DNA of 64,000 nucleotides from Planktothricoides raciborskii GIHE-MW2 (GTDB lineage Bacteria > Cyanobacteriota > Cyanobacteriia > Cyanobacteriales > Laspinemataceae), in NCBI RefSeq assembly GCF_040564635.1, contig NZ_CP159837.1:577001-641000 (forward strand). Direction: 5' to 3'. The translations under genes were made by a program, and so were the position numbers. Under the pieces are notes generated by a model. That model had not been told where the DNA came from and made no database searches. It saw only the letters and a list, made by a program, of their open reading frames with translations. Below, in pieces: positions 20,606-42,911 of the stretch. How positions within the stretch are numbered: the first letter of the stretch is position 1; the number at the start of each line of letters is the position of its first letter.

Positions 20606-22387
20606 TTAACATTCAACAGTTGTGAAACTTGCATATCGACCACCGGCAAGAATGAGATCGTTATGAGTGCCAGTTTCTACGACTTTACCTTTCTCTAAAA
20701 CAACGATTAAATCAGCATTCTGGATTGTAGACAGTCGATGGGCAATAATTAAGCTAGTACGCTTCTCTAACATGGTCGCTACAGATTGTTGAATCATGCG
20801 CTCTGACTCGGTATCAAGAGCCGAAGTTGCTTCATCAAGAATTACAAACTCAGGGTTTTTGAGTAGAACTCTAGCAATAGCAATACGCTGTTTTTGTCCC
20901 CCAGATAGTTTGACTCCTCGCTCACCAATAATTGAATTGTATCCATTGGGTAATTCCATAATAAAGTCATGAGCATAGGCTGCTTTGGCAGCAGCTTCAA
21001 TTTCCTCATCGCTTGCGTCTAGTTTACCGTAAGCAATGTTATCTCGCACCGTACCATAAAGAAGTAAATTTTCTTGGGAAACAATTCCAATATGCTCTCG
21101 TAGAGACTTCAAAGAGATATCTCGTAAATCATAATCATCAATTAAAACTCGACCTTTTTGAGGATCGTAAAAACGAGCTGCAAGTTTAGCGATCGTACTT
21201 TTTCCTGCGCCTGAAGATCCCACTAAAGCCACTTTCATCCCAGGTTGAATATCTAAGTTTAGGCTATGGATAATCGTTTGATTGGCTTCATAGCCAAATT
21301 CAATTCCTTCAAATTTCAGGCGTCCTCGTACTAATTTGAGATTAATGGCATCCTCTTTTTCCTTAATCTCTGGTTCTAAAGCTAACACTTCAAAAATTCG
21401 TTCTGCTCCCACCATTGCTTTTTGGATGATATCGATCAATCCATTAAAACGTTCAAAAGGCTTGGTTATTATATTAACATACATTAAAAATGTTGTTAAT
21501 TCTCCTATTGTTAACCTTCCCAGCATGACTTCCCAAGATCCGAAAACTAACACCAGGATACTAGAAAGATTATTCAAGATGTTCAAAATTGGTGAGACTA
21601 ATGACCAGCGACGAATAGCTCGGAGATTACTATCCATATAGTTATGGCTACACTCAGCAAAACGGTCTATTTCATACTTCTCATTTCCAAAGGATTTGAT
21701 CGCTTGAATAGTAGAAATAGTATCTTGCAGAATATTACTAACTTCCGCCGCTTGAGTTTCGAGTTCTCGGTAAGCAACTTCTAGCTTGTTTTTACTTAGC
21801 CGCATGATATAGACAATTAATGGCCATGTAACAATCACTAAAATTGCTAGTTGCCAATCCATAGTTAGCATATAAACTATTAATACTAAAATGGAAGCAA
21901 TGTCTATGACCAGTTCAGCCAGATGTGAGGAGAATAAATTTCCAACCGCATCAACATCTCGCACTAAGTAACTCATCAAATTCCCAGTTCGATTGTGGAC
22001 AAAAAAGCCCGTGGATAAATTTTGAATATGATTGTATAAGTCTGTGCGAATGCTATTGATTACTTTTTGGGCAAAAAAATTAATCAAATACACGCGCAAT
22101 GAATTAAAAAGTCCAAACAAGACGTAAAAACATAGAATACCTACGGCTAGTAAAGGTAATAATTGAAATTGTTTCTGCGGAATGAGAACATCAATGGCAT
22201 AGCGACTTACTTGGGGAATCAAAAACTTGAGAAATGCAAAAATAAATGCACTCATAATAGCCATCATAAACGGGGTTTTATGCCTAATACCATATTCAAA
22301 TAGCTGCTGATATGAAGTTTTGCGTTCCACTAAATTTAGACTGTCTGTCTGACGATTATTCATCAAAGTAATAGGGGTAACTTGCAT
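20606..22387 (-). CDS. ABC exporter, fused membrane and ATPase domains
   Basis: A 593-residue type IV (MsbA-like) half-transporter that works as a homodimer exporting lipids or amphiphilic compounds. About six membrane helices cover residues 35-330, then the nucleotide-binding domain has Walker A LVGSSGAGKST (about residue 390), signature LSGGQKQRIA, Walker B FVILDEATSALD and the H-loop IAHRLST. Its position as the last gene of the cluster, in the same direction, suggests it exports the cluster product. A 557-bp gap containing an IS66 remnant separates it from the glycosyltransferases, so it may have its own promoter. Confidence 0.92.
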   Translation of the reverse strand: MQVTPITLMNNRQTDSLNLVERKTSYQQLFEYGIRHKTPFMMAIMSAFIFAFLKFLIPQVSRYAIDVLIPQKQFQLLPLLAVGILCFYVLFGLFNSLRVYLINFFAQKVINSIRTDLYNHIQNLSTGFFVHNRTGNLMSYLVRDVDAVGNLFSSHLAELVIDIASILVLIVYMLTMDWQLAILVIVTWPLIVYIMRLSKNKLEVAYRELETQAAEVSNILQDTISTIQAIKSFGNEKYEIDRFAECSHNYMDSNLRAIRRWSLVSPILNILNNLSSILVLVFGSWEVMLGRLTIGELTTFLMYVNIITKPFERFNGLIDIIQKAMVGAERIFEVLALEPEIKEKEDAINLKLVRGRLKFEGIEFGYEANQTIIHSLNLDIQPGMKVALVGSSGAGKSTIAKLAARFYDPQKGRVLIDDYDLRDISLKSLREHIGIVSQENLLLYGTVRDNIAYGKLDASDEEIEAAAKAAYAHDFIMELPNGYNSIIGERGVKLSGGQKQRIAIARVLLKNPEFVILDEATSALDTESERMIQQSVATMLEKRTSLIIAHRLSTIQNADLIVVLEKGKVVETGTHNDLILAGGRYASFTTVEC

Positions 22388-22546
22388 ACAAAACCTTGAG
22401 AAACTGGATGAACTTACACTTGACCAATATTATATGGTATGAAGTAGTGTTTCAGGCGAGATTGCCTCTCCTATTAATCAACTTGAGTAGAAGGGCGCTA
22501 CTGTTAGCATTACTACAGCATATGTCAATAATATATCACAATCAAA

Positions 22547-22736
22547 CCCACATTCCGCACTTCAACTTGACGAAAACCCTTGGGCAGTTAAAGGTATCAA
22601 AAAATGGTTGTGGGTGATGACCAATCCTCAATTCTGTTTGTTCCATGCTGGTGATACTCGCTCTCGTGCCGATTTAGAAAGCATTTTAGGCAATAAGTAT
22701 CGTGGTGTTATCAGCAGGGCGTGCAATAACTTTTAA
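22547..22736 (+). pseudogene. IS66-family transposase fragment
   Basis: From about 22566 the plus strand reads LDENPWAVKGIKKWLWVM, then FCLFHAGDTRSRADLESILG and NKYRGVIS, the catalytic-core signature of IS66 transposases (first Asp of the DDE triad in LDE, RSRAxLExxLG). The frame is cut after about 55 codons at a TAA (22734-22736). Just left of the homology is CCCACATTCCGCACTTC (22547-22563), the terminal sequence of the 10.5-kb element, so one mobile element may have broken another. No intact IS66 gene is present. Confidence 0.75.
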
Positions 22737-22944: not shown

Positions 22945-24252
22945 TCAAGGCCTATCTACTGAATTATATGAATTTTTGTCTTGACTGATGACTTCTTGAA
23001 AAAAAGGATCTAAATCAGAAGTTAAGATCGAGTATAAATTTTTTAAATTTAAAAACCTCGTCATTTGGTGGTGAGAAGGATAGGTAGTATTTTTAAATTC
23101 TTGGAATCTGGCTAGTGCAAATTGCCAAATCCTATTAGCACGAATATCCCAAGTAAAATTCTGTACATCTTGAAAAGCTCGTTCAGCAATAGTAGTTGCT
23201 AAATGTGAATTTTCAAACAAATCAACTATCGCTTTTTGGAAAGAAATAGGATTGTCTGGATCTGCCAAGACTGCATTTTCTCTATCTCGCAATACGGTCA
23301 TAATATTTGGTAAAGCGGAAGCAACGATGGGTTTACCAACCGCCATATACTCAAAAAGTTTGAGCGGACTTGTAACTTCAGCTAAATTCCAAGATTGGCT
23401 AGTGGGCAAAATCAGAATATCTGCTGCATATAGGTATGGGACTAATTCAGATTGAGGTAAGTGACCGATAAGGGACACATTTAATAAGCCTTCTTTTTGA
23501 AGATTCTTTTTAACTCGATTAACATCAGTTGACCATCCTCCAAGTAATAAAAATTGGCAGTCTGGCATGAGACGAGCTAGGTTTAAAATTGTGGGAATTC
23601 CTTTAGAGTCATACAAATGACCGGAGTAAAGGATGATTTTTGCTTCTGTTGCCAGAGAGAGATTCTGCCGAGCCAAATTTTTGTCTAGAACAGGCAGAAA
23701 ACTGTTTAAGTCTACACCACTGTGAGCCATCAATAACTTGTCAGTATCTAAACCAAGCTGAATATAGTTTTCTGCTAATTGGGATGAGATAGTCACAACA
23801 CCAATTAAGTTTCGATCTTTCAATAATTTGGCTCGCAAAGAATCTTTTTCGATCGGTTCGTGGCATTCCCAAATAACGGGTTTACCGATTTTAAGCAGTA
23901 ATTCCACAATTTCAGATGTGCGAGTATAAACTAACGAATCTTCTTTAAAAAGACTATAGATAACAGCCAGCTTATAATACAGTACATTTCTATAGTTTTG
24001 AGGAAGCAGCAACTGGGATTGGAGGTGTACTGGTAAGCGGACTAACTTATAGCATTCTTTGAGTCCGTACCAGTCCTGGAACTCAGCATCCATTCCTTGA
24101 CCCATTGACAAAAGATCGCCGCTGGTGACTAATTCAAAATCTTTGATTTTTCGTGAAAAAGCTTGCGCCATTTTCGCAATTTGTACTGTGTGAGCCCATT
24201 GTGAAGGTAAGTTTCCTGGAGATAAATAGATGAGTGATTTTGAAAAAGCCAT
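22945..24252 (-). CDS. GT4-type glycosyltransferase
   Basis: A 435-residue GT-B fold enzyme. The N-terminal domain opens with SLIYLSPGNLPSQWAHTVQ. The C-terminal domain has ILYSGHLYDSKGIPTILNLA (phosphate-binding region), LLLGGW, LPQSELVPYLYAADILILPT and the donor-binding acidic motif SPLKLFEYMAVGKPIVAS, all typical of glycosyltransferase group 1. It presumably transfers a sugar from a nucleotide donor to the cluster product or to a surface glycan; the substrate cannot be read. It ends the main co-directional run; the GT8-like gene lies 23 bp upstream. Confidence 0.88.
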   Translation of the reverse strand: MAFSKSLIYLSPGNLPSQWAHTVQIAKMAQAFSRKIKDFELVTSGDLLSMGQGMDAEFQDWYGLKECYKLVRLPVHLQSQLLLPQNYRNVLYYKLAVIYSLFKEDSLVYTRTSEIVELLLKIGKPVIWECHEPIEKDSLRAKLLKDRNLIGVVTISSQLAENYIQLGLDTDKLLMAHSGVDLNSFLPVLDKNLARQNLSLATEAKIILYSGHLYDSKGIPTILNLARLMPDCQFLLLGGWSTDVNRVKKNLQKEGLLNVSLIGHLPQSELVPYLYAADILILPTSQSWNLAEVTSPLKLFEYMAVGKPIVASALPNIMTVLRDRENAVLADPDNPISFQKAIVDLFENSHLATTIAERAFQDVQNFTWDIRANRIWQFALARFQEFKNTTYPSHHQMTRFLNLKNLYSILTSDLDPFFQEVISQDKNSYNSVDRP

Positions 24253-24275: not shown

Positions 24276-25127
24276 TTAATTTAGGATTGTTTTGCTGGGA
24301 GGAAGGTATGAGCGCAGATATCCAAGAGCTTGGTGAGTAGCATCGGGCATAAACTTCTCTGCGGCTTGACGGAAAATATTCCACTTGGAGGTGACAGAAT
24401 GATAAGAGTGAACGATCCTAATGTCTTTTTCCTCTAACATTGTAGCATCGATTTGGTTTAACTCAAGAGGCCAAGAATCGGTGAGCAAATCAAGTGGATA
24501 ATTATATTGACGTGGAAGATGAACAATCTCTGTTTTCGTTTTTTGGATAGCTCTGCACAAAGCCAGTTGGTCTTGCTGCTGAAAAACTCTCCATTCTTGT
24601 TTCCATGTGTCAAAGAGAGTTTGAGTCTGGAGACCTTTTTTCCAAAGGATCACGCCTCCATTATATTGAATAGAATCAGGAAAGCAGATTTTTAGGGTAT
24701 AGTCAATCTCTTGTTGTGCAATATGTTTGCATTGAGAAACTTGAGGGAATCTATCTGGTGAAATGAGGATATCTCCCAACTCTAACAAACTCCAAATTTT
24801 GTCAATCGGTTTGACTGGAAGAACATCTGCATCTAAATACAAGGTTTCATCAAACAAGCTTAAATCATTTAAACTAATTTTCAGCCATCTTGAAACTATG
24901 GCATTCTCAAGTCTCTCTTCTTCAGAAACAGCAATGGATTTGATAAAAATATTAATTTTGGCTAACTGCGCTTGCAGTTGAGGACAGTCTAGATTGGATA
25001 AGATGACTATCTCTACGTCAGGGGATACCTGATGCAGCGCACAAGCACTAATAACCGCTAATTCTAAATAAGACCAAGCGTCAATCGCGCAATAGATGAC
25101 ACCTCGTCTGGGTTTGGTGATGTTCAT
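24276..25127 (-). CDS. GT8-like glycosyltransferase
   Basis: A 283-residue GT-A enzyme. RGVIYCAIDAWSYLELAVIS is the donor-binding start, LFDETLYLDADVLPVKPI contains the DxD metal site, IQYNGGVILWKK and QQQDQLALCRAI are typical of retaining GT8 / nucleotide-diphospho-sugar transferases, and HLPRQYNYP lies in the C-terminal part. There is no membrane segment. It is the middle of three consecutive glycosyltransferase genes (23 and 54 bp gaps), so these are almost certainly co-transcribed and may build a short glycan together. Confidence 0.82.
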   Translation of the reverse strand: MNITKPRRGVIYCAIDAWSYLELAVISACALHQVSPDVEIVILSNLDCPQLQAQLAKINIFIKSIAVSEEERLENAIVSRWLKISLNDLSLFDETLYLDADVLPVKPIDKIWSLLELGDILISPDRFPQVSQCKHIAQQEIDYTLKICFPDSIQYNGGVILWKKGLQTQTLFDTWKQEWRVFQQQDQLALCRAIQKTKTEIVHLPRQYNYPLDLLTDSWPLELNQIDATMLEEKDIRIVHSYHSVTSKWNIFRQAAEKFMPDATHQALGYLRSYLPPSKTILN

Positions 25128-25181: not shown

Positions 25182-26696
25182 TTAGCTTTGAAGATAACGG
25201 GGTTGATACAATGCTAAACCAAGGACATCTAGGATTCTGATCGACCAGTAAATCGCAGCAGCAAATAAAATGCTATGTTCTGGAATTGTTCCGGAGATGG
25301 AAACTCGAAGAATACCGATGAATAATAGAATTAAAAGGACAATATGCCATCGACAATAGCGAAGATAGGATTGATGTTGAGCAGTCTTTCGAGTGACTAT
25401 ATATTTAGGTTTTTTATCTTTCCCATTCACAATGGCAACCCAAATCATTTTCAGATTAGCAAACAGCAAAGCAAATTCCAAAGTTTTGTGCTTCCAAGCA
25501 AAAACCACGTTTCCTTTGAGGACAGATAACTCAAAAAGAGCGATAAATGCGATCGCCATAAAGGTAATTGGCGGTACACTCAAAAACATTGGTTCTCCAA
25601 CTATTAAAGAAATGGCAATGGTCACATTGAAGAGAAATACTGATGTGGGATAGAGTAGTTCTTTGATTCCTTTTGTACAAAAAGCTAGGCGTTGCTTCAG
25701 ACTTAGCCCTGACAAATCGGCAAAAAACACTAATCGCAAGGCATCTAAAGACCAAACAGAACGTTGCTTCAAGAAGTTTTCCAGATCATTCACAGGTGCT
25801 TGAGTCGAGACACCCACTACATCAAGTGCTTGGGAAGTCCAACCTTTTTGGAGAATATGAACGGTTGTCGTTACATCTTCGACTATATTCCAAGCATCAA
25901 ATCCGCCTGCATCTACCAGTGCTTGCTGACGATAAACAACTCCCGATCCTAACGAAAATACACCACCTAGAGTAATCTTTCCTGGTAAAACATAAGATTG
26001 TAAAAAGACTTCCTGGGTATCAAATGGATCGGATTCATCTATCAGTTTTGTTTCTTTATAAGTTTGCACTAAACCTACAGTAGGTTCATCGATTAAATAG
26101 GTCATACATTTTCTAAGAAACTGACTATCTCCGACACAATCATCACAATCTCGCGTTTCTATATATTCTATCTGGGGGAAACGATGGTAAACCTCCTGCC
26201 AAGCTGCATTGAGGGCGCCAGCTTTTCCTTCTCCTTGACGAGCAGGAGAGCTTTTAGGGGGTGGTAAAATGTGATAACAGGAGAGTTGTGGATAGGCAGA
26301 CTGCACGACAGTTATCAATGTGGCAATATCTTCTCGGTGAGCATCATTAGCAATGAACAGCTTGATCTTATCAAGAGGATAATCCTGTTGGATTACGCTG
26401 TCTAGGGTCACTTTCAACAAATTAATATCTTCGTTATAAATAGGAATAATAATGGCGACTTCTGGAGTGTCAGGACTTAATTGATCTACTCTTATGGGAT
26501 TGCTGCTATGAAGATTGACGATGATAAAATAAGTAAAAAATATCGCGCCAATAACCACTGCAAATGCACAAAGATAGGCGAATATGGCATAGTGAAAGTT
26601 GAGATGAGACAGGAGTGAACAGGAGGCTGAAACCAGCAATACGATCGCCGATGTTCCCGCAATTTTGAGCATTATATTATAGGATGAATTGTTCAT
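25182..26696 (-). CDS. Membrane GT2 glycosyltransferase
   Basis: A 504-residue processive-type family 2 glycosyltransferase. Two N-terminal membrane helices (residues 8-60) are followed by the cytosolic domain: VAIIIPIYNEDINLLKVTLD, KLFIANDAH, the DCDD metal site (ETRDCDDCVGDSQFL), IVEDVTTTVHILQKGW (the E-D catalytic base region) and KQRSVWSLDALR, a variant of the Q-x-x-RW acceptor motif. Three or more C-terminal membrane helices follow. The layout is that of cellulose/hyaluronan-synthase-like or glycolipid-forming enzymes. The neighbouring genes suggest a glycosylated lipid or polyketide. Confidence 0.88.
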   Translation of the reverse strand: MNNSSYNIMLKIAGTSAIVLLVSASCSLLSHLNFHYAIFAYLCAFAVVIGAIFFTYFIIVNLHSSNPIRVDQLSPDTPEVAIIIPIYNEDINLLKVTLDSVIQQDYPLDKIKLFIANDAHREDIATLITVVQSAYPQLSCYHILPPPKSSPARQGEGKAGALNAAWQEVYHRFPQIEYIETRDCDDCVGDSQFLRKCMTYLIDEPTVGLVQTYKETKLIDESDPFDTQEVFLQSYVLPGKITLGGVFSLGSGVVYRQQALVDAGGFDAWNIVEDVTTTVHILQKGWTSQALDVVGVSTQAPVNDLENFLKQRSVWSLDALRLVFFADLSGLSLKQRLAFCTKGIKELLYPTSVFLFNVTIAISLIVGEPMFLSVPPITFMAIAFIALFELSVLKGNVVFAWKHKTLEFALLFANLKMIWVAIVNGKDKKPKYIVTRKTAQHQSYLRYCRWHIVLLILLFIGILRVSISGTIPEHSILFAAAIYWSIRILDVLGLALYQPRYLQS

Positions 26697-26735
26697 TTGA
26701 TGGCGATAAGGGTGATGAAATTTACCAAATATTCA

Positions 26736-27644
26736 TTATGTTAATTGTTTTGAGTTTTTATACCCATATAAATCGGCAAGAGATTGATTTATTTTACAAT
26801 TAATAGCTTGAATTTCTTCGGAACTCAAATACTCAACAAAACCCCCAACTGTTCCTTTTCGCGTCTTATAAGATTCTGGATCATTCTTATCAGTTGCTTT
26901 TAAACTGTATGAATTTGCCATTTCTGCTGTTTCCATCTGACGCATATTATCAAAGGAAGCATAGTTAACTGCTTCATCCAAAACTTCATACTTGATATTG
27001 GCGATGCCTAAAAACTCAATAATGCGACGAAGTTCTCCGTGAGGATTTTGGTGAATATCTTCATACCGAGTCAAAAGAAACTCTCGAGGCACATCTTTAT
27101 TTTTTGCCCAAATATTGTAGAAGTTAATAATGGTATCTATACTGCCCACTTCTTCATTCAAATAAGAGGATAAATCCCCCTCATAAGGGTTGAGTCTTTC
27201 CTGATAGTCTTGGAGGTGTGGAGTTTCTGTTAAAGAATTGAGCCAAAACTGAACTCTTTTCTTTTGTTCAAAATAAGTTGAAACAACTAAATCTCTAGGG
27301 TCTCTTACCAAAAAGATGACTTTTGTATTTTGGTAGTGTGTTTTAGTTTTCATTAACTCATTAGGCTTTTTCCAGTGGGGATCGTCGTCATGGGTAAACT
27401 GAATCTTTGGCAGTGAGGGATGTAATTTTGCTAAGGGAAATTTACTGTCTAGTAGAGTATCTAAAAGATTCGTGTTGGATATACCTAAATGACCCACGAT
27501 TGCCTGCCCTATCATTAACTTGAGCCAAGTACGCCCGCATTTAGGAAATGAAATGATATAAGTGTCTACAGTCGGATCTACAGTGAACATATCAAATGAA
27601 CGCTTTTGGGAGTGTTTTATCCAATTTTTCTGGCTATTTTCCAC
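26736..27644 (-). CDS. Sulfotransferase (PAPS-dependent)
   Basis: This enzyme transfers sulfate from PAPS to a hydroxyl or amine. It shows the 5'-phosphosulfate loop FPKCGRTWLK (residues 33-42), the 3'-phosphate motif LVRDPRDLVVSTYF (about residues 112-125), the catalytic-His candidate in IQFTHDDDPH, and a C-terminal RKGTVGGF, a variant of the RKGxxGDWK loop. Its length of 302 residues is normal for soluble sulfotransferases. The frame starts with GTG at 27644; an ATG 18 codons later is possible. It sits between the EctC-like and glycosyltransferase genes, consistent with late tailoring. No PAPS-synthesis gene is in the window. Confidence 0.9.
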   Translation of the reverse strand: MENSQKNWIKHSQKRSFDMFTVDPTVDTYIISFPKCGRTWLKLMIGQAIVGHLGISNTNLLDTLLDSKFPLAKLHPSLPKIQFTHDDDPHWKKPNELMKTKTHYQNTKVIFLVRDPRDLVVSTYFEQKKRVQFWLNSLTETPHLQDYQERLNPYEGDLSSYLNEEVGSIDTIINFYNIWAKNKDVPREFLLTRYEDIHQNPHGELRRIIEFLGIANIKYEVLDEAVNYASFDNMRQMETAEMANSYSLKATDKNDPESYKTRKGTVGGFVEYLSSEEIQAINCKINQSLADLYGYKNSKQLT

Positions 27645-27790: not shown

Positions 27791-28174
27791 TTACATGGCA
27801 TAACTGGAACTGAACTCAGTTGATAATTTGTGAGATTCATGACCTTGAAGGGGTGGATTAAAAACACAAATCAGACGCATCTGAGTTTTGGCCCGCAAAT
27901 AATGCGCTTCCCGTCGATCCAGAGCATACATCGTCCCTGGTTCAATGGGGTAAACAATTCCATCAGATTGTACTTCGCCTTCTCCCTCAATGCAGTAACA
28001 AGCTTCTAAATGATTAGTGTATTCTAACAGAGATTCTGTTCCGGCATCAATTATGGTATCCGTCAGGGAATAGCCCATGCCATCTCTAGCTAACAAAAAT
28101 CTCCGACTTTGGCCATTACCCCAAGCAATATCTCGCTCAGAGTTAATAATTTCGCTTAATTTTCTGATAATCAT
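27791..28174 (-). CDS. Ectoine synthase (EctC)-like cyclase
   Basis: A 127-residue cupin matching ectoine synthase along its whole length: YTNHLEACYCIEGEGEV, PIEPGTMYALDRREAHYLRA and ICVFNPPLQGHE. The three iron ligands of EctC are conserved as Glu57, Tyr83 and His91. EctC closes N-gamma-acetyl-diaminobutyrate into the cyclic amidine ectoine with loss of water. EctA, EctB and EctD are all absent here, so ectoine itself is unlikely from this operon alone; the protein may close a similar amidine or lactam ring in the cluster product. A good ribosome binding site (TAGGAGATAA) precedes the ATG. It lies 69 bp after the Rieske gene. Confidence 0.88.
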   Translation of the reverse strand: MIIRKLSEIINSERDIAWGNGQSRRFLLARDGMGYSLTDTIIDAGTESLLEYTNHLEACYCIEGEGEVQSDGIVYPIEPGTMYALDRREAHYLRAKTQMRLICVFNPPLQGHESHKLSTEFSSSYAM

Positions 28175-28243: not shown

Positions 28244-29311
28244 TCAGATATATTCTGACAAAACATTCTGGAAGTGAGCAACGCCTAACTCATGATCCTG
28301 GGCTAATTGCACCACTTGATAGGCGCGTGAGTTGATACCAGCCTGAATTTGCCGACAGATTGAAAAATCCTCTTCCATCAGCACGTCAAACCCCTTACGA
28401 AACTCGTTCTTTCGATAGGGAATATCTGCAAATTGAGTAGGAGATTGATAAATAATAATCTCCACTCGGGTATGTTTTGCATCTATAGGGATGAGATGAA
28501 AAACAGAGAGAAACTTTTTGTGCGGGTTCAACATCATGTTGGGAAATATGTAACCCTGATGAGAACTTTTACCGGATTCGGAAAAGCTAGTAAAAAATTC
28601 TCCTCCCTGATTATTGGTATAGGGAACCTTAATGCGGAGGTGACGACCAGTGGGTAAGCTGCGGATATTGTCGCTGTCGTAAACTGTGCCAAAACCCTGA
28701 CTGTGGACTGCCTCAAAATGGTAATCTTCGACGTAATTTTCCACAATCAATTTCCAGTTAATAGGTTGGTCATAGAACCAACGATCAACCTCTCTTAAAT
28801 TGTTCCAATCCTGATCGTAATTTTCCAAAAAAGCGGGCATTTCGGCTAAGTAGTCTTCCAGAGATTCTGCCTCAGCATTGGGATTTACAAAAATAAATCC
28901 TCCCCAGGTTCCTACTTGTGCTGGAACTAGGCGAATTTTAGATTTGTCAAAATTAGGAAAAAGCTTAGGCTTAGTAATTCCTAGTAGATGACCGTCTAAA
29001 TTATAAGTCCAAGCATGATAGGGACAGGTAATTTTGTGATGAGCGCAACTCCCCTCCCCCTCTAATAACTTTGCTCCACGATGGGGACATAAATTGTGCA
29101 TAGCTTTTAAAGACCCATCGGTTGCCCGCACGACAAAAATTGGCTCTTCTCCTAAAGTATAGGTGAGATAATCTCCAGGTTCAGGAATAGTTTCTTGCCG
29201 ACCTACTAATTGCCAGGTGTTACGCCAAAGGGTTTTCATTTCCTTGGCAAAAATCTCTGCATCAGTATAATATTGGGAAGGAAGCCCCAAGTGCTTAGTT
29301 TGTAACAGCAT
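28244..29311 (-). CDS. Rieske non-heme iron oxygenase, alpha subunit
   Basis: A 355-residue oxygenase. The Rieske 2Fe-2S centre is CPH (Cys75, His77) and CPYH (Cys96, His99). The mononuclear iron site is in NWKLIVENYVEDYHFEAVH (His-His) with a distal Asp near DFSICRQIQ. These enzymes hydroxylate or demethylate small molecules and need a reductase and ferredoxin from elsewhere. The family includes aromatic-ring dioxygenases, choline monooxygenase and the saxitoxin tailoring enzymes SxtT/SxtH; the substrate here cannot be told. The ribosome binding site is AGGAGATAAC. The spacing to its neighbours (33 and 69 bp) puts it in the operon. Confidence 0.92.
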   Translation of the reverse strand: MLLQTKHLGLPSQYYTDAEIFAKEMKTLWRNTWQLVGRQETIPEPGDYLTYTLGEEPIFVVRATDGSLKAMHNLCPHRGAKLLEGEGSCAHHKITCPYHAWTYNLDGHLLGITKPKLFPNFDKSKIRLVPAQVGTWGGFIFVNPNAEAESLEDYLAEMPAFLENYDQDWNNLREVDRWFYDQPINWKLIVENYVEDYHFEAVHSQGFGTVYDSDNIRSLPTGRHLRIKVPYTNNQGGEFFTSFSESGKSSHQGYIFPNMMLNPHKKFLSVFHLIPIDAKHTRVEIIIYQSPTQFADIPYRKNEFRKGFDVLMEEDFSICRQIQAGINSRAYQVVQLAQDHELGVAHFQNVLSEYI

Positions 29312-35500: not shown

Positions 35501-38500
35501 TTCCAATATGGCGCTATCTGATGCCTTAGCGGTTTGATAGCGAACCAACCGGGCAACATAGCGTTCATGGTTGCGATAGGCAATTTGGTCTTCAATAATA
35601 TCTGTCGATAACAGGGGGAATACTTCCGCAAATAAAGCTTGAGCAGACTCGTTAGTTGTTGCTTGGGGATCTAAATCGATCCGCATCACTTTTAAGTCTG
35701 GATGCTCTAAGGGAATTGTTTTACCCATACCCCACAGCAAAGAAGGAACTAGCGCCTGTATTGACTGTTCTTGAATCGACTGGGCACCTTGAGTAACTAT
35801 CCACAACGGGGGACGGGTATTATTTTTTACTAGAGCTTGTACCAGGTGTAATGCACTGCCACAACTGAATAAAGCCGTTTGTTCTAAGGTTTCTGAGGTT
35901 AGGTTTATTGATTGTTCTAATCCCCAAGTATGAACGATTCCATCAATCAAGGGCAAGGATGATAAGAGTTGCTGAAAATGTTCTGGACAAGCGGGATTAA
36001 TTCGGTATTCTTGTGCAGAGATGTTTTGGTATTCCTCACCGGCCAAAACCAGAATACAAATTTCGCCTTGAGCACGCAATAAAGTAGCTAATTCTTGACT
36101 TTGGGGAGAATCAGCAAAGATTAACCAATGGCGAGGTTGATTTGTTTTGCTGATAGCAGACTGCCGTTTTTGTTGCTGCCATTCGATTTGATATAGGCAA
36201 TCTTGCTCTGGATTTTCAGTTTTGCCTAGCATGGTTTGCCGGCGCACCCGTTTTAGTTGTAGTCCCTGAACTTCTACAATTACTTGCCCATGAGAATCTA
36301 ACAATTTAATATCAGCTTTCAGGATGTCTGTCTCTTCAGATTCTTGTGGATGTAATTGAGCATAACACCACATTTTAGCGCTGGGTTTTTGCCAAAATTC
36401 TAACTTTTCAAAAACCACTGGCACATAGGTTTCTTCTCGCTCTTCTAACAAAGTTGCATCTAACACTTGCAGACAGGTATCTAATAACACTGGGTGGACT
36501 TGATAGCTGTCTAAGTCTAAGGTTAGAGATTCTGGTAAAACGATGTAACCAAGTGCTGTATTTTGATTGCGCCATACCTGGTCAACGGCGCGGAAACTAG
36601 CACCATAGTCTATTTGCTGATCTTGAAATTTTTGGTAAAGATCGCGCACAGCAATTTCTTCTGTTATTTGCTGTTTTAACTCAATTAAATTCAACAATTC
36701 TGGCGTTTTTGGTGCTTCTAAGTAGAGTTTACCTGTGGCATGAATCAGCCAAGAAGGTTGTTTTTGGCTATCTTCCCCAGACTCTAAACTAAAAACTTGG
36801 AATTTGTAAGCTTTATTTGCTTCTGGTTGCAACACCATCTGTAGGGTTTTGGCTTCATTTTCTGATAGAACCAGCGCCTTTTGGATGGTAACACCTTCTA
36901 AGCGAATACTTTGAGGAGATTGGGTGATATTTTTCGCTGCTGCTAAAGCCATTTCTAAATAAGCAGTTCCCGGCAAAATTATGCTATCAAACACGCGATG
37001 ATCGCCTAACCAAGCTGGGAAATACTTACTAATTTGTCCTTGAAAACGTAACTCCTGAGTTCCCGCCAAGGATAGGGCAACACCTAATAAAGGATGCTGG
37101 GAATTATCAGAGTTAAAGCTGGGTATTTGAGAGATAGCTGGTGCATCTATCCAATAGCGACGTCGTTGGAAGGGATAGGTGGGTAAAACAACCCGTTTTC
37201 TGACAAAATCCCGGTCAAAACCCTGCCAATCAATTTTTACACCATGCAGATAAAGTTCGGCTAAACTGGTGAGTAACGCTTGCCAATCTTCTTTTTCTGG
37301 ACGCAAACTTGGCAACCACAAACCAGAATCATCTGTCGGTAAACACTGACGACCCATACCTAATAAAATGGGTTTGGGTCCAATTTCTATAAATATTTCC
37401 ACTCCCTGCTGTGCCAAAGATTGCATACCGGCAGCAAATTTCACAGGTTGAAGGATATGTTGACACCAATAGTCAATGTTTGTGATAGCATCTGTAATTA
37501 CTTCTCCTGTAACATTGCTAATTACAGGAATCTGGGGGTATGAAAAAGTTACTTGTTGCGCTATTTGCTTAAACTCACCTATAATTGGCTCCATTAAAGG
37601 CGAGTGAAAAGCATGAAAAACTCGTAAATTTTTGGTTTTTATACCTTGGGTTTCTAGGGTTTGACAAATTGTTTGAATGGCTTCTCTTTCCCCAGAAATC
37701 ACTACACTTTGAGGAGCATTACTGGCTGCTAAAGAAACTTTTTCTGTTGCAGAAATAACTGATAATACTTCTTGTTCAGAAGCTAAAACCGCCACCATTT
37801 CTCCGTTTTGAGGTAAGGCTTGCATCAGCCTACCCCTATGAGCAATTAGCTTTAATCCATCTTCTAAGCTAAAGACTCCAGCGATAGTTGCAGCTACATA
37901 TTCACCAACACTATGCCCCATGAGGATATCGGGTTTAATGCCCCAGGATTGCCACAACTGAGCTAAGGCATATTCCACCGCAAATAAGGCCGGTTGTGTG
38001 TAGGCTGTGTTATCTAATTTTGACTGGTTATCAGAGAATAATACCTCCAATAAAGAAACGTCTAAGTATTCTTTTAAAATATCGTTGCAGCGGTCTAAAT
38101 TTTGCCGAAAAGTTGGCTGTGTTTCGTAGAGTTGGCGACCCATATTCAGATATTGGGAACCTTGTCCTGTGAATAAAAAACCAAGTTTTTTGGCAGTTCC
38201 GTTTTTGACCGAATCAGCTTGGGAGAAATGCAAATCTTGATGTTGCAATTGTGATTGCAAATTCTCTATTGAGTCGGCAACGATTGCTAATCGGTGCTGA
38301 AAATGTTTGCGTCCTGTATTGGCAGTAAAGCAAATATCTCCTAGTTCTACATGAGAATTGCTGCCTAAATAATCTACATACTTTTCCACTAAATCCTTTA
38401 GAGCAGCTTCGGTTTTAGCGGAGAGGGTTAATAAATGAGTCGGTCTTTCGGTAAAATACGGTTGGCTAGTTGGGGGAGCTTCTTCTAAAACGACATGACA

Positions 38501-39847
38501 ATTAGTGCCACCCATACCAAAGGAACTAACTCCGGCACGACGTGGGAAGTCGTTTTTATTCCATTCTACTAACTCGGTATTGACGTAGAAAGGGCTATTA
38601 GCAAAATCAATATTAGGATTGGGTTGGTTAAAGTTTAAGCTGGGAGGAATGGCACCATTTTTTAGGGCTAATATTGTCTTAATTAGACCAGCAATTCCCG
38701 CAGCATCATCTAAATGTCCGATATTAGTTTTCACTGAACCAATGGCACAGAATCCATTTTTAGCTATCGGTTCATCTGTACTTTGGTGAAAAGCTTGGGT
38801 GAGGGCAGTAATTTCAATCGGATCGCCGAGAGCAGTGCCGGTGCCGTGAGTTTCTACATAACTTATTGTATTAGCATCAATTTGCGCTACGGCTAAGGCT
38901 TCAGAAATTACAGCTACCTGTCCTTGAATACTGGGGGCAGTATAACTCATTTTATGAGTTCCATCGTTATTGACTGCCGTTCCTTTAATCACTGCATAAA
39001 TGCGATCGCCATCTGCAATGGCTTTACTCAGTAATTTCAGGACAACCACACCAGCACCATTACCAAAAACGGTTCCTTTAGCATCAGCATCAAAGGCTCG
39101 ACAATGCCCATCTGGTGATAAAATCATTCCTTCCCGATAGAGATAGCCTACCCGATGGGGAACAAAGATAGAAACACCGCCAGCTAAGGCTACATCACAT
39201 TCACCGCAATGTAAACTTTGACAAGCTAAATGTACAGCCACTAATGAGGTAGCACAGGTTGTTTGTACACTGACACTTGGACCTGTTAAACCTAATTTGT
39301 AGGAAACGCGCATCGGTAAATGATCGCCGCCATTTCCCTGTTCTAAATGTAAATCGTTAGCGGCTCTAAATAGTCTATGGCTAAGATAGGGTTTTGCGGG
39401 GGAAAATCCTTGGCTAGGACAAACATTATTAATTAAATAGGTACTCAGACTTGAACCGGCATAAACACCAAATAATTCTTGTTGGTGATTTTCGGAATTA
39501 TAACCAGCGTTTTCTAATGCTTCCCAAGCACATTCTAGGAAAATTCGCTGTTGGGGATCTATAATCGCAGCTTCTTTAGCACTGTACCCAAAAAAGTCAG
39601 CATCAAACTTGTCAATTTGGGAGAGTACCCCCCCAGCTTTGATGTAATTGGGATGCTTCAACAAGTTAGGATCGATAAAGTCTAATTCTGAGTCGGAGAA
39701 AAAGGAAATGGATTCGACTCCATTGCACAAATTTTTCCAAAAATCATCAATATTCTCTGCCCCAGGAAAGCGACAGGACATACCAAGGATCGCGATCGCA
39801 GGTTGATGCAACGGCTCCCTATCCTGATTATTTAGAATAAAATTCAT
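32552..39847 (-). CDS. Type I polyketide synthase, KS-AT-DH-ER-KR-ACP-TE
   Basis: A 2431-residue complete reducing module with its own release domain. KS: Cys198 (VQTTCATSLVAVH), His334 (VETHGTGTALGD), His378 (TNIGHLDD). AT: Ser646 (GHSVGEY) and HAFH at 745-748, predicting malonyl-CoA. DH: His950 (LGDHRVFDSIILPG), Asp1123. ER: about 1460-1770 with HAGAGGVGQAAV. KR: about 1775-1960 (LITGGCSGLGLLVA, Tyr1926). ACP: Ser2087 (DLGLDSLMA). TE: Ser2245 (AGHSFGGK), Asp2272, His2414. There is no methyltransferase domain. All active-site residues are present, so full reduction to a methylene is expected. The VQTxC context of the KS resembles ketosynthases that accept aminoacyl chains from NRPS carriers, fitting the A-PCP gene upstream. 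Confidence 0.95.
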   Translation of the reverse strand: MNFILNNQDREPLHQPAIAILGMSCRFPGAENIDDFWKNLCNGVESISFFSDSELDFIDPNLLKHPNYIKAGGVLSQIDKFDADFFGYSAKEAAIIDPQQRIFLECAWEALENAGYNSENHQQELFGVYAGSSLSTYLINNVCPSQGFSPAKPYLSHRLFRAANDLHLEQGNGGDHLPMRVSYKLGLTGPSVSVQTTCATSLVAVHLACQSLHCGECDVALAGGVSIFVPHRVGYLYREGMILSPDGHCRAFDADAKGTVFGNGAGVVVLKLLSKAIADGDRIYAVIKGTAVNNDGTHKMSYTAPSIQGQVAVISEALAVAQIDANTISYVETHGTGTALGDPIEITALTQAFHQSTDEPIAKNGFCAIGSVKTNIGHLDDAAGIAGLIKTILALKNGAIPPSLNFNQPNPNIDFANSPFYVNTELVEWNKNDFPRRAGVSSFGMGGTNCHVVLEEAPPTSQPYFTERPTHLLTLSAKTEAALKDLVEKYVDYLGSNSHVELGDICFTANTGRKHFQHRLAIVADSIENLQSQLQHQDLHFSQADSVKNGTAKKLGFLFTGQGSQYLNMGRQLYETQPTFRQNLDRCNDILKEYLDVSLLEVLFSDNQSKLDNTAYTQPALFAVEYALAQLWQSWGIKPDILMGHSVGEYVAATIAGVFSLEDGLKLIAHRGRLMQALPQNGEMVAVLASEQEVLSVISATEKVSLAASNAPQSVVISGEREAIQTICQTLETQGIKTKNLRVFHAFHSPLMEPIIGEFKQIAQQVTFSYPQIPVISNVTGEVITDAITNIDYWCQHILQPVKFAAGMQSLAQQGVEIFIEIGPKPILLGMGRQCLPTDDSGLWLPSLRPEKEDWQALLTSLAELYLHGVKIDWQGFDRDFVRKRVVLPTYPFQRRRYWIDAPAISQIPSFNSDNSQHPLLGVALSLAGTQELRFQGQISKYFPAWLGDHRVFDSIILPGTAYLEMALAAAKNITQSPQSIRLEGVTIQKALVLSENEAKTLQMVLQPEANKAYKFQVFSLESGEDSQKQPSWLIHATGKLYLEAPKTPELLNLIELKQQITEEIAVRDLYQKFQDQQIDYGASFRAVDQVWRNQNTALGYIVLPESLTLDLDSYQVHPVLLDTCLQVLDATLLEEREETYVPVVFEKLEFWQKPSAKMWCYAQLHPQESEETDILKADIKLLDSHGQVIVEVQGLQLKRVRRQTMLGKTENPEQDCLYQIEWQQQKRQSAISKTNQPRHWLIFADSPQSQELATLLRAQGEICILVLAGEEYQNISAQEYRINPACPEHFQQLLSSLPLIDGIVHTWGLEQSINLTSETLEQTALFSCGSALHLVQALVKNNTRPPLWIVTQGAQSIQEQSIQALVPSLLWGMGKTIPLEHPDLKVMRIDLDPQATTNESAQALFAEVFPLLSTDIIEDQIAYRNHERYVARLVRYQTAKASDSAILEIPKQPFRLTIADRGTPDNLKLETINRQLPADTEVEILVHAAGLNFIDVLNVLEMYPGEPPLGIECAGKIVAQGAGVTNLEIGDSVMAIATGSFSQYVTVNANLVVPVPKVLSFEEAATIPESFLTAYWSLHHLAKITSGKRVLIHAGAGGVGQAAVQLALQAGAEVFVTASPSKWDSLKALGVKAVMNSRTLDFAEEIMAVTQGKGVDIILNSLTGEGFIAKSLSVLAENGCFLELAKRDIWSYEQMAQFRPDVSYFKVDTAKACQEESATIQLMLRHLVQQFENHKLKPLTNTVFPIQSAVNAFRYMQQAKHIGKIILNWQTGIVQANGSYLITGGCSGLGLLVARWLVEQGARHLILLGRSGVQQENAAQIAEIEQAGTSVTIMPADVSNWVEMTKVFSYINENLPPLRGIIHAAGVLDDGLIQQQTWQRFTKVMAPKVQGAWNLHNLSQHESLDFFVMFSSSASLLGAPGQGNYAAANAFLDALASYRRSQGLAGLSINWGPWAEVGMTAKLQLGDRLSQKGEDSIYPQQGLEILEMLLMESPVQVGVMPMNWTRFWERQTAITPIFSQLQQSLELKVGQQSVIEFHKHLETLPFAERKAALTSHLCSQAAKILGIKNPQQLSTGERLVDLGLDSLMAIEFLSLLQSSLGVSLSSALLFEYPTVEALVDYLSKDFVTSEEVNSVSLTQGKDSQAVLPGANQGNSSQHHSTIIAIQTQGTKTPLFCVSGILGSVFDFYGLARYLGADQPFYGLRSLGLVTGEQPLTVMTEIADHHIQAIQKIQPQGPYKLAGHSFGGKVAFEMARQLQDQGQAVSFLAIMDIPAALIGSDRQIGTWDNAEYITKLAEIYGGGSGERLVISPESLRTLKLEEQLRVLLDQLQQIGQKLTEVELQQIFSVYRANMIADTAYIPPKCEVSITLLRAKEIGQLDFLPDAITTEKDPSWGWQQVSTKPIQLHVIPGNHFTMIKEPHVQFLARQLK

Positions 39848-39898
39848 TGCTGCTTAATTTTTAGTAGTGTTGGCAAATTGAAATTAAAGTCAAGAATT

Positions 39899-40861
39899 TT
39901 AATTGATTTGTGTGTTTGAGGAAATTCGGTTAATAGTGGTTAAGGGGGATACAAGTTGCCCAACAACTGATTGGGAAAGCTGTTCTGAATCTGACAAACC
40001 AAACTGCCAATCACGAGAACTACCAAGCGGTTTCTCAAAAGTGCCAAACAGGATATCCCAGAAGGGAAACATATCTGCCAGGTTAGCATCATAACGGCAA
40101 TGTACTGTATGATGCCAAGCATGAAAGTTAGGAGTGGCAATTAAATAAGCCCACCAAGGAAACGTTTCTTTCATATTGGGAAAGTCTACGTTGAAATGGG
40201 GCAGGATGCCACCAAATACCATCCGAATACTTAGACCAATTACTAATGCTTCATTACTAACTCCTAGAAGATAGGCTAGACCAATATCTGAAGCTAGATG
40301 CCCTAGATTAAACACGGGATGGTCGCGGCTTCCAGTAATGCAATTGAGTTCGGTAACTCCATGATGCACTTTATGAAACCGCCAAAAAAATAGCAAGGAA
40401 TGATCTAATCTGTGAAAAGCATACCTTTTCAAGTCTTCTATGAGTAAATAAGTAACAATTTGTAACAATAGGGGTGCAGCGAGAGCAGTCAATCCCCACT
40501 GTCCTGTCCCTGACGGAAACTGTTGGAGAAAGGCACTCAAGAAACTGATTTGAAGGGCGATCGCTATCATCCCTGAAAAGGCATTAATTCCTAAAGTTAG
40601 CAATGCCTCTTTGGATATCCAATTATTGTTTTGTCTGCTCCAGAACGATTCCAAAAACAAACCAATTGTCAAAATACCTAGGCGTACCCAATCATGTAGG
40701 AATAGGGCTGTAGTTAATAGCAATAGTATTCCAGTTATAGCTAGCCAGGGGCTTGCTTTAGGCCATTTTTTGGCTGTCAATTCTGAACACAAACAGATGC
40801 CAAAAAGACTAAACAGTAATGCCAGATTAATTAATGTTTCTCCAGTGAAGCTTAAGAGCAT
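39899..40861 (-). CDS. Sterol desaturase / fatty acid hydroxylase family enzyme
   Basis: A 320-residue membrane di-iron enzyme. After four hydrophobic segments come the His boxes: AFHRLDH (His150, His154), FHKVHH (His163, His166, His167) and NFHAWHHTVH (His247, His250, His251, His254). The family hydroxylates or desaturates lipids and small molecules (sterol desaturases, carotene hydroxylases, SxtD in saxitoxin clusters). AAAGGAT lies just before the ATG. It is only 16 bp past the A-PCP gene and 51 bp before the PKS, so translational linkage is likely. It is predicted to oxidise the starter or the chain. Confidence 0.9.
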   Translation of the reverse strand: MLLSFTGETLINLALLFSLFGICLCSELTAKKWPKASPWLAITGILLLLTTALFLHDWVRLGILTIGLFLESFWSRQNNNWISKEALLTLGINAFSGMIAIALQISFLSAFLQQFPSGTGQWGLTALAAPLLLQIVTYLLIEDLKRYAFHRLDHSLLFFWRFHKVHHGVTELNCITGSRDHPVFNLGHLASDIGLAYLLGVSNEALVIGLSIRMVFGGILPHFNVDFPNMKETFPWWAYLIATPNFHAWHHTVHCRYDANLADMFPFWDILFGTFEKPLGSSRDWQFGLSDSEQLSQSVVGQLVSPLTTINRISSNTQIN

Positions 40862-40877
40862 ATCCTTTGTTTTATTC

Positions 40878-42911
40878 TCATCTGTGACGCTGGCGATGTG
40901 CTTGTCGGACTTGCCGTTGGTGAGAGGCCATTGAGTAACAATTCCTCTGGTTTAAAGCCCATTTTGTTACTTGTTGCTGTGCTTTTTCTTCACTTAATTC
41001 TGCGGCTAATTTTTGAATGGTGGGATATTGGAATAAAGTGGTAATTGTTGTGAGCCGATTATGAAAAATTTCTACAAGTTTTTCATAAACTTGCATGAGT
41101 AACAAAGAAGTACCACCCAAATCAAAAAAATTCTGAGTGATGGATACTGCTTCCAATTGTAAAATATCTTGCCAGACCTGAGCAATCTGTTTTTCTGTCT
41201 CAGTTTGTGGCAAAACTATTTCACTTGTCAACAAGGGCAGCGATCGCTTAGGAACAGGAAAATTACGCCGATCTAGTTTGCCGGTGGGAGTAAGGGGCAT
41301 CTCCTCCAAAAACACTATAGCCGTCGGCACCATATAATCAGGCAAATTGGATCGTAAATGACGATGTAGGATTAATTCTAGGTCATTAGTAACTGCCTCG
41401 TTTAAGGGGACAACATAAGCTACTAAACGCTTATTACCGGGTACATCTTCTCGCAGAATTACTGCACACTCCCGCACCATCGGATGTTGAGATAACAACC
41501 CTTCAATTTCCCCTAATTCAATGCGAAATCCTCGCAACTTCACTTGACGATCGGCACGTCCCAAGTGCTGAATATTACCATCTGGCAAATAGCGAGCTAA
41601 ATCTCCGGTTTTGTAAAGACGACCAGGGCCAAAGGGATTAGCAATAAACCGCTCCTGGGTGAGGTCAGGACGGTTAAAATAACCTCTAGCAATTCCTTCG
41701 CCACCAATGTACAATTCCCCTTCAGCGCCGATGGGTACTAATTGATAAGAGCGGTCTAATATATAAATTTGAGTATTGTGGATGGGACGACCAATTGGGG
41801 GTAGAGTCTGCCAATCTTGGACGTTATTTGATAGGGTAAAAGCTGTCACATCTTGGCATTCTGTGGCTCCATAATGGTTGTGCAAAATGCAGCCGCTTTT
41901 CTGGAAGAATTCAGCGATCGCCGGCACAATCAGCAATTGTTCCCCCGCTGTCATTACTTCCCGCAGCGGTAGGGATCTACCTTTAGCAATTTTTGCTAAT
42001 TGCTGAAGTGCGGCAAAAGGCAAATAAATTTTTTCAACACCTTGGGTCAATATAACATTGAATAAAGCTTCGGGGTTGCGTCGCTGCTCTTCGGAAATCA
42101 ACACTAATGTTCCGCCAGAACACCAGGTAGAAAAAATTTCATGGAAGGAGATATCAAAACTTAGGGGAGCAAATTGTAGCGTTTTGGCGGGAGTGACCCG
42201 ATTATGCATATGCCAGTCAATTAGATTAACCAGTGGTAGATGTTCCATCATCACCCCTTTGGGTTTGCCGGTGGAACCAGAGGTGTAAAGAACGTAGGCT
42301 AAGTTATGTGGCTGAACTGAACTAACTGGATTGTCCTTACTTATTTGTGATATTTTATCCCATTCGCGATCTAAATCAACGACAGTATATCCCTGAGCCA
42401 CAGGGGCAATTTCTGAGTAAGTTTCTAACAATTTTCCGGTAGTTAATAGCAGATACACCTGGGCATCTGCCAACATATAGGCAAGGCGATCTGGGGGATA
42501 GGAGGGATCGAGGGGAACATAAGCGGCACCTGCTTTGAGAACCGCTAATAGTGCTACAACCATTTCTAGGGAGCGCTCAATACAAATCCCTACTAAAGTT
42601 TCTGGTTTAACTCCTAATCTCTGTAGGTGATGAGCAAGTTGATTAGCTCGTTGATTCAGTTGTTGATAAGTTAGTTTTTCATGGCCGAATACTACTGCCG
42701 TTGTATCTGGCGTTTGTTGCGCTTGTTCCTCGAACCAATGATGAATACACCAGTCTCGCCTGTAATCAGTTTCGGTATGATTCCAGGCTTCTAATAATTT
42801 TTGTCCCTCAGTGTTAATCAAGACAGGTAAAACAGGAATTTCTTCCTTGTAGTTAACTATGCCTTGTTCACCAAAGTTGGGCGGCAATAAATTCGCCATT
42901 ACTACTACCAT
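40878..42911 (-). CDS. NRPS adenylation domain plus peptidyl carrier protein
   Basis: This activates an amino (or related) acid with ATP and loads it on its own carrier; there is no condensation domain. Core motifs are LTYQQLNQRANQLA (A1), LKAGAAYVPLD (A2), LAYVLYTSGSTGKPKGV (A3), FDISFHEIFSTW (A4), NHYGATEC (A5, with Ala in place of the usual Pro), YKTGDLARYLPDG (A7), GFRIELGEIE (A8) and LTPTGKLDRR (A10). The carrier motif FFDLGGTSLL puts the phosphopantetheine Ser near residue 602. A basic tail ends the protein. Pocket residues I can place are Asp-Ile-His (235, 236, 239), and His, Asp, Val near 322-331; I do not recognise this specificity. The start is uncertain (42911 or 42899). It is the first gene of the operon. 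Confidence 0.9.
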   Translation of the reverse strand: MVVVMANLLPPNFGEQGIVNYKEEIPVLPVLINTEGQKLLEAWNHTETDYRRDWCIHHWFEEQAQQTPDTTAVVFGHEKLTYQQLNQRANQLAHHLQRLGVKPETLVGICIERSLEMVVALLAVLKAGAAYVPLDPSYPPDRLAYMLADAQVYLLLTTGKLLETYSEIAPVAQGYTVVDLDREWDKISQISKDNPVSSVQPHNLAYVLYTSGSTGKPKGVMMEHLPLVNLIDWHMHNRVTPAKTLQFAPLSFDISFHEIFSTWCSGGTLVLISEEQRRNPEALFNVILTQGVEKIYLPFAALQQLAKIAKGRSLPLREVMTAGEQLLIVPAIAEFFQKSGCILHNHYGATECQDVTAFTLSNNVQDWQTLPPIGRPIHNTQIYILDRSYQLVPIGAEGELYIGGEGIARGYFNRPDLTQERFIANPFGPGRLYKTGDLARYLPDGNIQHLGRADRQVKLRGFRIELGEIEGLLSQHPMVRECAVILREDVPGNKRLVAYVVPLNEAVTNDLELILHRHLRSNLPDYMVPTAIVFLEEMPLTPTGKLDRRNFPVPKRSLPLLTSEIVLPQTETEKQIAQVWQDILQLEAVSITQNFFDLGGTSLLLMQVYEKLVEIFHNRLTTITTLFQYPTIQKLAAELSEEKAQQQVTKWALNQRNCYSMASHQRQVRQAHRQRHR

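Follow-up and report, generated by a model that had tools for sequence, protein, structure and literature searches.

Organization of the locus

We analysed a window of 64,000 nucleotides from Planktothricoides raciborskii GIHE-MW2 (contig NZ_CP159837.1, positions 577,001 to 641,000), in which thirteen open reading frames (ORFs), all on the minus strand, span positions 20606-42974. They contain a hybrid nonribosomal peptide synthetase/polyketide synthase (NRPS/PKS) biosynthetic cluster, in which a stand-alone adenylation and carrier protein (A-PCP), a PKS whose KS, AT and ACP motifs are intact and several tailoring genes form one conserved block. The product of this cluster is probably small, sulfated and nitrogen-rich. 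Among the tailoring genes lies an orphan homolog of the ectoine synthase EctC, and its proposed role, the supply of the amino acid loaded by the A domain, is the part of our analysis likely to surprise specialists.

The coordinates agree with the original prediction of thirteen same-strand genes; computed from the ORFs, the intergenic gaps measure 16-79 bp, save for 146 bp between the sulfotransferase and EctC genes and 557 bp between the genes of an ABC exporter and a family 4 glycosyltransferase (GT4). The 22-kb extent first proposed (20606..42911) is right as to the genes present and needs correction at both ends. The longest ORF of the A-PCP gene begins at a GTG at 42974 and has the ATG of position 42911 in its interior, and the conserved part of the locus covers approximately 25182-42974. 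Pfam confirmed twelve of the gene families assigned earlier, the exception being a GT8-like gene.

The A-PCP (40878..42974; AMP-binding 6e-90, PP-binding 8e-10) carries the pocket code DIHYMAHDV. Its C terminus (40878-40960) is a conserved basic tail that follows the carrier domain and ends in RQAHRxRxR in four of four orthologs; this tail may serve in docking to the PKS. The adjacent gene encodes a membrane di-iron hydroxylase of the fatty-acid-hydroxylase/sterol-desaturase superfamily (39899..40861; FA_hydroxylase 9e-22), which is related to the ornithine-lipid hydroxylase OlsE and has the His boxes HRLDH, HKVHH and HAWHH, every His of which is kept in the orthologs of three Nostocales genomes described below. 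The PKS (32552..39847) is a single module with the Pfam domain order KS-AT-DH-ER-KR-ACP-TE. The catalytic motifs that we looked for are present in this protein and in its three orthologs, with an AT motif, H[AG]FHSP, that is usual for malonyl-CoA. Domains and motifs support the earlier view that an amino acid would be loaded on the A-PCP, extended by a fully reducing PKS (here one module that ends in a TE), and modified by several oxygenases.

The PhyH-family Fe(II)/2-oxoglutarate dioxygenase (31531..32472; PhyH 6.5e-33) has the leucine hydroxylase 5nch as its best solved relative, EctD and MysH being others. It is followed by a radical SAM/SPASM enzyme with a CNLHCTMC motif (30402..31493; Radical_SAM 7e-11, SPASM 8e-10), for which we found no PDB relative at 0.001, and by an EamA-family exporter (29345..30373; EamA 1.4e-23). 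The Rieske oxygenase (28244..29311), assigned by Pfam, is of the carnitine/glycine-betaine monooxygenase type: it matches carnitine monooxygenase across residues 10-354 at 1.6e-47, and the saxitoxin enzyme SxtT merely at 6.6e-7 over residues 30-118, that is, in the Rieske domain only. No Rieske reductase was found among the window genes scanned with Pfam.

The EctC-type cyclase (27791..28174; Ectoine_synth 4.4e-46) precedes a sulfotransferase dependent on 3'-phosphoadenosine 5'-phosphosulfate (PAPS) (26736..27644; Sulfotransfer_1 5e-27) and a membrane GT2 glycosyltransferase (25182..26696; Pfam). The latter is CelA-like. QxxRW is the motif expected of GT2 enzymes, and QRSVW stands at this place in all four orthologs, so the protein may not be a processive synthase.

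Conservation and spread of the cluster

The conserved gene order that the original prediction had proposed to seek in other cyanobacteria was indeed found. Anabaena sp. UHCC 0187 has all nine genes from A-PCP to GT2 in collinear order; the same block, minus the radical SAM gene only, is carried by Dolichospermum sp. UHCC 0259 and genome G069. The order shared with these three Nostocales genomes is A-PCP, hydroxylase, PKS, PhyH, (radical SAM), EamA, Rieske, EctC and GT2. Because this order recurs in three genomes, the gene block is far beyond what chance would produce.

Conservation is uneven along the block. Among the cluster proteins, EctC is conserved best (87-88% identity to the window ortholog); PhyH stands at 86%, EctC, PhyH and Rieske together at 86-88%, and the radical SAM enzyme at 83%. 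The PKS, A-PCP, hydroxylase (73-74%), EamA (72%) and GT2 (74-75%) proteins fall in the range of 71-75%, and the housekeeping protein Mfd reaches 71-72% in the same comparison.

Within the genus, all thirteen proteins are 99.4-100% identical in Planktothricoides sp. SR001 (contig NZ_LIUQ01000040.1), in unchanged order and with no difference seen, and the PKS had no match at E <= 1e-300 in a second genome of the genus (G391, 95% complete). When 386 genomes of the phylum were scanned with the Rieske protein (E <= 1e-60), five genomes including the own one were retrieved, two others of which (G069 and G077) have the cluster. The Rieske relatives of G381 and G032 (47-48% identity) were dropped, as no other cluster gene lay within the 20 kb read. 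This patchy spread suggests horizontal transfer. In G069, one transposase gene lies between PKS and PhyH and a second one splits the sulfotransferase gene (L101:766-1941, L101:8557-11580); the cluster may be decaying in this genome.

The end of the locus beyond GT2 differs between genomes. The GT8-like gene (24276..25127; Glyco_transf_8 E = 0.0022, below the Pfam cut-off), which has no PDB relative by sequence, the GT4 glycosyltransferase (22945..24252; Glycos_transf_1 1.7e-20) and the MsbA-like ABC exporter (20606..22387; Pfam) have no match in the three Nostocales clusters, and the window sulfotransferase has no ortholog there. Since these four genes lack counterparts, we place the shared cluster at approximately 25182-42974. 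From the three glycosyltransferases and two exporters predicted originally, GT2 and EamA are thus conserved members, and GT8, GT4 and ABC are not found in the Nostocales versions. The membership of the ABC gene is uncertain; 557 bp separate it from GT4, a gap in which a promoter and terminator scan stayed at chance level.

In the Nostocales clusters, the genes 3' of GT2 include an APS kinase in three of three cases (by Pfam in UHCC 0259, by orthologs 85-100% identical in the other two) and a transporter of the Polysacc_synt/MATE family (flippase). UHCC 0259 has a sulfotransferase of 245 amino acids, whose G069 counterpart is the one split by the transposase gene, and UHCC 0187 has a Sulfotransfer_3 gene, pieces of which remain in UHCC 0259 and G069. 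The window sulfotransferase is 27.6% identical to that of UHCC 0259 and has no blastp match to that of UHCC 0187. Non-orthologous sulfotransferases in the window and its relatives, with a PAPS supply in the Nostocales clusters, make sulfation likely on balance and lend some support to the sulfated product proposed earlier, although the sulfotransferases differ and one of them is broken. G069 may have lost sulfation.

Upstream of the operon and adjoining ThiC, we noticed a short FGE-sulfatase-type gene (43307-43768) that matches the Pfam model only from position 130 of 255 and is perhaps a remnant.

The EctC of the cluster is an orphan

The window EctC lies outside any ect cluster and, as judged from its phylogeny, is an orphan that groups away from the EctC of ect operons. 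In a tree of 30 EctC sequences, the side holding the crystallised and ect-operon enzymes is split from the rest (98/92) and the window EctC stands on the other side, as do the three Bradyrhizobium EctC that were placed; the tree program flagged the long branch of the ect-operon row, L128, and some rows on the canonical side, L063 among them, have an unproven ect neighbourhood. A group (86/88) unites the EctC of the window with those of UHCC 0259, Iningainema, Gloeothece and Cyanothece and with a second EctC of UHCC 0187. The Mycetohabitans EctC is placed elsewhere.

We surveyed the loci of the best 80 of 273 EctC relatives, a sample that is thus biased to the window's type. The Fe ligands E57, Y84 and H92 are kept in all 80. 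The window EctC has Gly in the column of Trp-21, a Trp three residues upstream (W18) and Thr at Asn-38; Trp-18 with Gly-21 occurs in 72 of these 80 loci, Trp-21 in six and neither in two (one of which, L014, reads X). According to the part of the article by Czech et al. that was accessible, Trp-21 is invariant in 437 EctC of ect clusters and displaced by two in some orphans (PMC6344544). Accessible portions of this and a second paper describe that the EctC of Halomonas elongata makes the cyclic amidine 5-amino-3,4-dihydro-2H-pyrrole-2-carboxylate (ADPC) from glutamine as a side reaction (PMC6344544, PMC5924519). As far as the available text of the latter goes, the function of solitary EctC is unsettled, with remnants and competent ectoine synthases both considered and the latter favoured for that of Pseudomonas syringae (PMC5924519).

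Orphan EctC genes also occur in other surroundings. The second EctC gene of UHCC 0187 (L127:9129-10648) directly follows an EamA gene and has genes for the RsgA GTPase and a GH57 branching enzyme as neighbours; in Cyanothece UBA12306 (L014:8896-10327), EctC again directly follows an EamA gene, with a Na:alanine symporter gene upstream. This arrangement suggests a common metabolite as the substrate of EctC, and export of the product. On a plasmid of Gloeothece verrucosa PCC 7822 (L129:13799-20110), a fatty acid desaturase gene and EctC are followed by genes for a GNAT protein, a tryptophan 7-halogenase and an HpaB-type monooxygenase.

A further cluster recurs around orphan EctC on plasmids of Aliiroseovarius crassostreae (L131) and Streptomyces sp. 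NBC_01351 (L132) and at loci L035 and L017, with an AMP ligase and an acyl-CoA dehydrogenase. A carrier protein is present in L131 and L132; a KS occurs at all of these loci but L017, where it was not among the ten genes scanned. Genes resembling the tryptophan pathway stand beside EctC: TrpD in L131, TrpD, TrpF and TrpA types in L035, TrpF, TrpC and TrpA in L132, and TrpF, TrpA, TrpD and TrpC types with a pyridoxal phosphate enzyme in L017. It is speculation that oxidation of ADPC would there give an aminopyrrole acid that takes the place of anthranilate.

An unusual A-domain code accompanies EctC

A-domain substrates are commonly read from a ten-position pocket code, nine positions of which we obtained by alignment. 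The A-PCP has DIHYMAHDV in the window, UHCC 0259 and UHCC 0187, and alignment gives the same residues in G069. In Iningainema tapete, an EctC gene (74% identical to the window's) is divergently transcribed from an NRPS gene whose A domain also reads DIHYMAHDV, and in Mycetohabitans endofungorum EctC is followed, after approximately 225 bp, by an NRPS that has DIHYIAHDV in its first A domain. A second A domain of I. tapete, on another contig and 57.5% identical to that of the window, reads DVQFIAHVV, which (as DVQxIAHVV) we take to be a proline code. Judged by these residues, the EctC-linked code is proline-like, with His for Gln at position 239 and Asp for Val at position 330.

The pattern FDISFHE occurs in 3 of 386 cyanobacterial genomes, and these are three of the four with EctC above the Pfam cut-off, the fourth being G015, which has an ect-type operon. 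In five genomes chosen by locus, it is found once each in four, where it lies inside the cluster or next to EctC; the metagenome-assembled genome of Cyanothece lacks it. Within the order of Mycetohabitans, 1 of 349 genomes has it, the seed itself.

Eight of the best 80 EctC loci hold an NRPS-type A domain, defined by at least 40% identity over at least 350 residues at E <= 1e-40. Two of them have the DIHY code, five are from Bradyrhizobium and one is from Lentzea. For L002-L004, the A-PCP lay outside the stretch surveyed and was found in the separate comparison of clusters. In the five Bradyrhizobium loci (L072, L074, L077, L078, L080), an EctC with Cys at position 38 is located 1.3-3.6 kb upstream of an A domain with DVQFYAQVI, a code that, by its residues, is proline-like as well.

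The whole-domain tree places the Mycetohabitans A domain among those of its own NRPS (82/99), but in the pocket segment the cyanobacterial DIHY domains come nearest to it, at 55-62% vs 50.5% for the nearest proline-code segment.

A proposed pathway and its alternatives

We propose that the orphan EctC supplies the substrate of the A domain, likely ADPC, which would then undergo PKS extension, oxygenation and sulfation; we give this reading, taken as a whole, a probability of roughly 0.48. EctC would cyclise glutamine to ADPC before loading, and the A domain would accept it through its proline-type pocket, with the Asp at code position 330 binding the amidinium. The PKS would add one malonyl unit, fully reduced (C2), and the TE would either free 3-(5-amino-3,4-dihydro-2H-pyrrol-2-yl)propanoate (C7H12N2O2) or close a bicyclic lactam (C7H10N2O). 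All three oxygenases (di-iron, PhyH and Rieske) could hydroxylate this compound, with the radical SAM enzyme and GT2 acting as optional or late enzymes and GT2 perhaps decorating the product. Finally, the sulfotransferase would sulfate the compound, and EamA, with MATE or ABC, would export it. The expected product would be a small polar sulfated acid or lactam of alkaloid-like character, every chemical step being an inference from the genes.

The early place of EctC in this proposal was set by the pairing of code and EctC. Since the pairing occurs outside this PKS setting, we favour an EctC that acts before loading, to which the pairing points without proving it. The EctC and EamA genes placed between housekeeping-type genes in UHCC 0187, and the EamA gene beside the Cyanothece EctC, are likewise as expected if EctC uses a common metabolite. 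In favour of the proposal we also count the collinear block with its EctC, Rieske and PhyH proteins conserved above the level of Mfd, the rarity of FDISFHE, the EctA and EctB matches that stay below the cut-off, the position of EctC in the tree and its residue changes, the formation of ADPC by the H. elongata enzyme, the proline-like A domains near EctC in Bradyrhizobium and the PKS motifs retained in four orthologs.

Several observations weigh against this proposal. The exact pairing of code and EctC outside the cluster is limited to two cases, and the A-domain pockets involved look, from their sequences, homologous rather than convergent. The co-occurrence of FDISFHE and EctC is not independent evidence, because all three cyanobacterial genomes carry this same cluster; a reversed control pattern, moreover, matched 1 of the 386 cyanobacterial genomes (G174) and once in the five chosen genomes (G004, I. 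tapete). One of the eight A domains at EctC loci, that of Lentzea, has a non-proline code (DVPFLALEV), and 11 further loci have weaker AMP-ligase matches (~27-32%); codes were read for six of these, and none is of the DIHY type. A-domain codes in general predict substrates imperfectly. EctB-type aminotransferases were detected below threshold in all six genomes with the pairing (the best, that of Mycetohabitans, at 372.9 bits vs a cut-off of 552.2), and four of the six also have EctA-type fragments of 22-25 bits. These matches leave room for a diaminobutyrate-type route, most so in Mycetohabitans, whose EctC has Trp-18 but retains Asn-38; Thr-38 is therefore not required for the pairing. Lastly, in the accessible part of the source, the equilibrium of the H. 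elongata EctC favours glutamine and its efficiency is very low (PMC5924519), and A-domain loading would therefore have to pull the reaction.

The original prediction had assigned EctC to a late ring closure. In such a scheme, the A domain would load proline or another ordinary amino acid, the PKS would extend it, and EctC would act on the released product, joining an amine to an amide or ketone. Closure of amidine rings is indeed a reaction of EctC-type enzymes, and the gene lies mid-cluster, adjoining the Rieske gene and distant from A-PCP. Yet the same type of code accompanies EctC in two NRPS systems, where the window's other tailoring genes are unmatched in the stretches compared, and a late step specific to the PKS does not predict the second EctC of UHCC 0187, which has only EamA beside it among housekeeping-type genes. 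We consider late closure unlikely and do not favour it. Still less probable, in our opinion, is that EctC makes ectoine or represents a hitch-hiking remnant unrelated to the product. Its Fe ligands and most substrate residues are kept, sub-threshold EctB-type aminotransferases are present, and the consulted portion of one paper allows solitary EctC to be remnants or competent ectoine synthases (PMC5924519). On the other hand, EctA and EctB exceed the cut-off in none of the six genomes, for which the control G015 was positive for both, the protein is the best conserved of the cluster, and in the tree it stands apart from the ect-operon type. Because EctA and EctB stay below the cut-off, we see no dedicated supply of the ectoine precursor in this genome, and ectoine production was rejected as the principal explanation. 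The Gly and Thr found in the columns of Trp-21 and Asn-38 likewise depart from canonical ectoine biosynthesis.

It is equally improbable, we believe, that the locus builds a sulfated, glycosylated surface lipid or polysaccharide, with a lipid-like anchor supplied by the PKS and A-PCP. The CelA-like GT2, the nearby GT4 and weak GT8 genes, the Polysacc_synt/MATE flippase of the relatives and the kinship of the di-iron hydroxylase with OlsE would fit such a role, but GT2 is without the Arg of QxxRW in four of four orthologs, and surface-glycan genes do not usually include an NRPS-type A domain, a TE-bearing PKS module, a Rieske oxygenase or EctC.

Beyond this cluster, we suggest more tentatively that the orphan EctC family makes cyclic amidine, proline-like amino acids such as ADPC for dedicated A domains of the proline family, with DIHYxAHDV in cyanobacteria and Mycetohabitans and DVQFYAQVI in Bradyrhizobium; the present cluster could then lead to a new class, sulfated bicyclic amidine alkaloids. 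If this were true, orphan EctC genes would predict amidine-containing natural products. What solitary EctC proteins do is a question that the available part of the literature acknowledges as unsettled (PMC5924519), and to which the code pairing offers a concrete handle. For bloom-forming cyanobacteria, the cluster would imply a probably sulfated small metabolite common to Planktothricoides and Anabaena UHCC 0187.

Comparison with known systems

The view of the locus as an unassigned natural-product cluster is supported, as searches of an open-access library, only some of them directed at this cluster, gave no description of it; MIBiG and subscription journals were outside this search. In the accessible text of the SR001 genome paper, only 2-methylisoborneol and cyanobactin are named as secondary-metabolite clusters (PMC5460452), and a survey of Nostocales states, in the portion available, that Anabaena UHCC 0187 encodes no known biosynthetic gene cluster (PMC7232259). 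The open-access texts on EctC/PKS clusters, ADPC-containing products and endopyrrole, so far as their available parts go, contained no match bearing on the cluster.

The genes that saxitoxin (sxt) clusters devote to a small nitrogenous core include those for Rieske and PhyH oxygenases, a sterol-desaturase-like protein, a sulfotransferase, an APS kinase and exporters of the EamA and MATE families, and the present cluster resembles them in these tailoring and export families. They are defined by an amidinotransferase and a carbamoyltransferase. In contrast, the window genes scanned include neither of these nor an SxtA-type start, and the Rieske enzyme belongs with carnitine monooxygenase, its match to SxtT being limited to the Rieske domain. 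A saxitoxin-like cluster was rejected on this Rieske subtype and on the defining genes missing among those scanned.

Anatoxin (ana) clusters of filamentous cyanobacteria have a proline-type A domain with a carrier that feeds a PKS, together with a prolyl-carrier dehydrogenase. The A domain and carrier feeding a PKS are shared, whereas the window has a single PKS module, the code DIHYMAHDV instead of a proline code, and no acyl-CoA dehydrogenase among the genes scanned; the lack of this family led us to reject an anatoxin type.

With canonical ectABC operons, the window shares an EctC that belongs to the Ectoine_synth family and keeps the Fe ligands, and it differs from them in the changes at W21 and N38 and in the EctA and EctB matches of its genome, which are below the cut-off. 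Another related system is the 'Ectoine-like 1' cluster of Pseudomonas Ps663, which, according to the accessible part of its description, is unlike ectABC and in which an AMP-dependent ligase and a transporter adjoin the ectoine synthase, as here; that part makes no mention of a PKS, Rieske, PhyH or sulfotransferase gene (PMC8719888). Set against these systems, the cluster of P. raciborskii is new as a variant of hybrid NRPS/PKS pathways.

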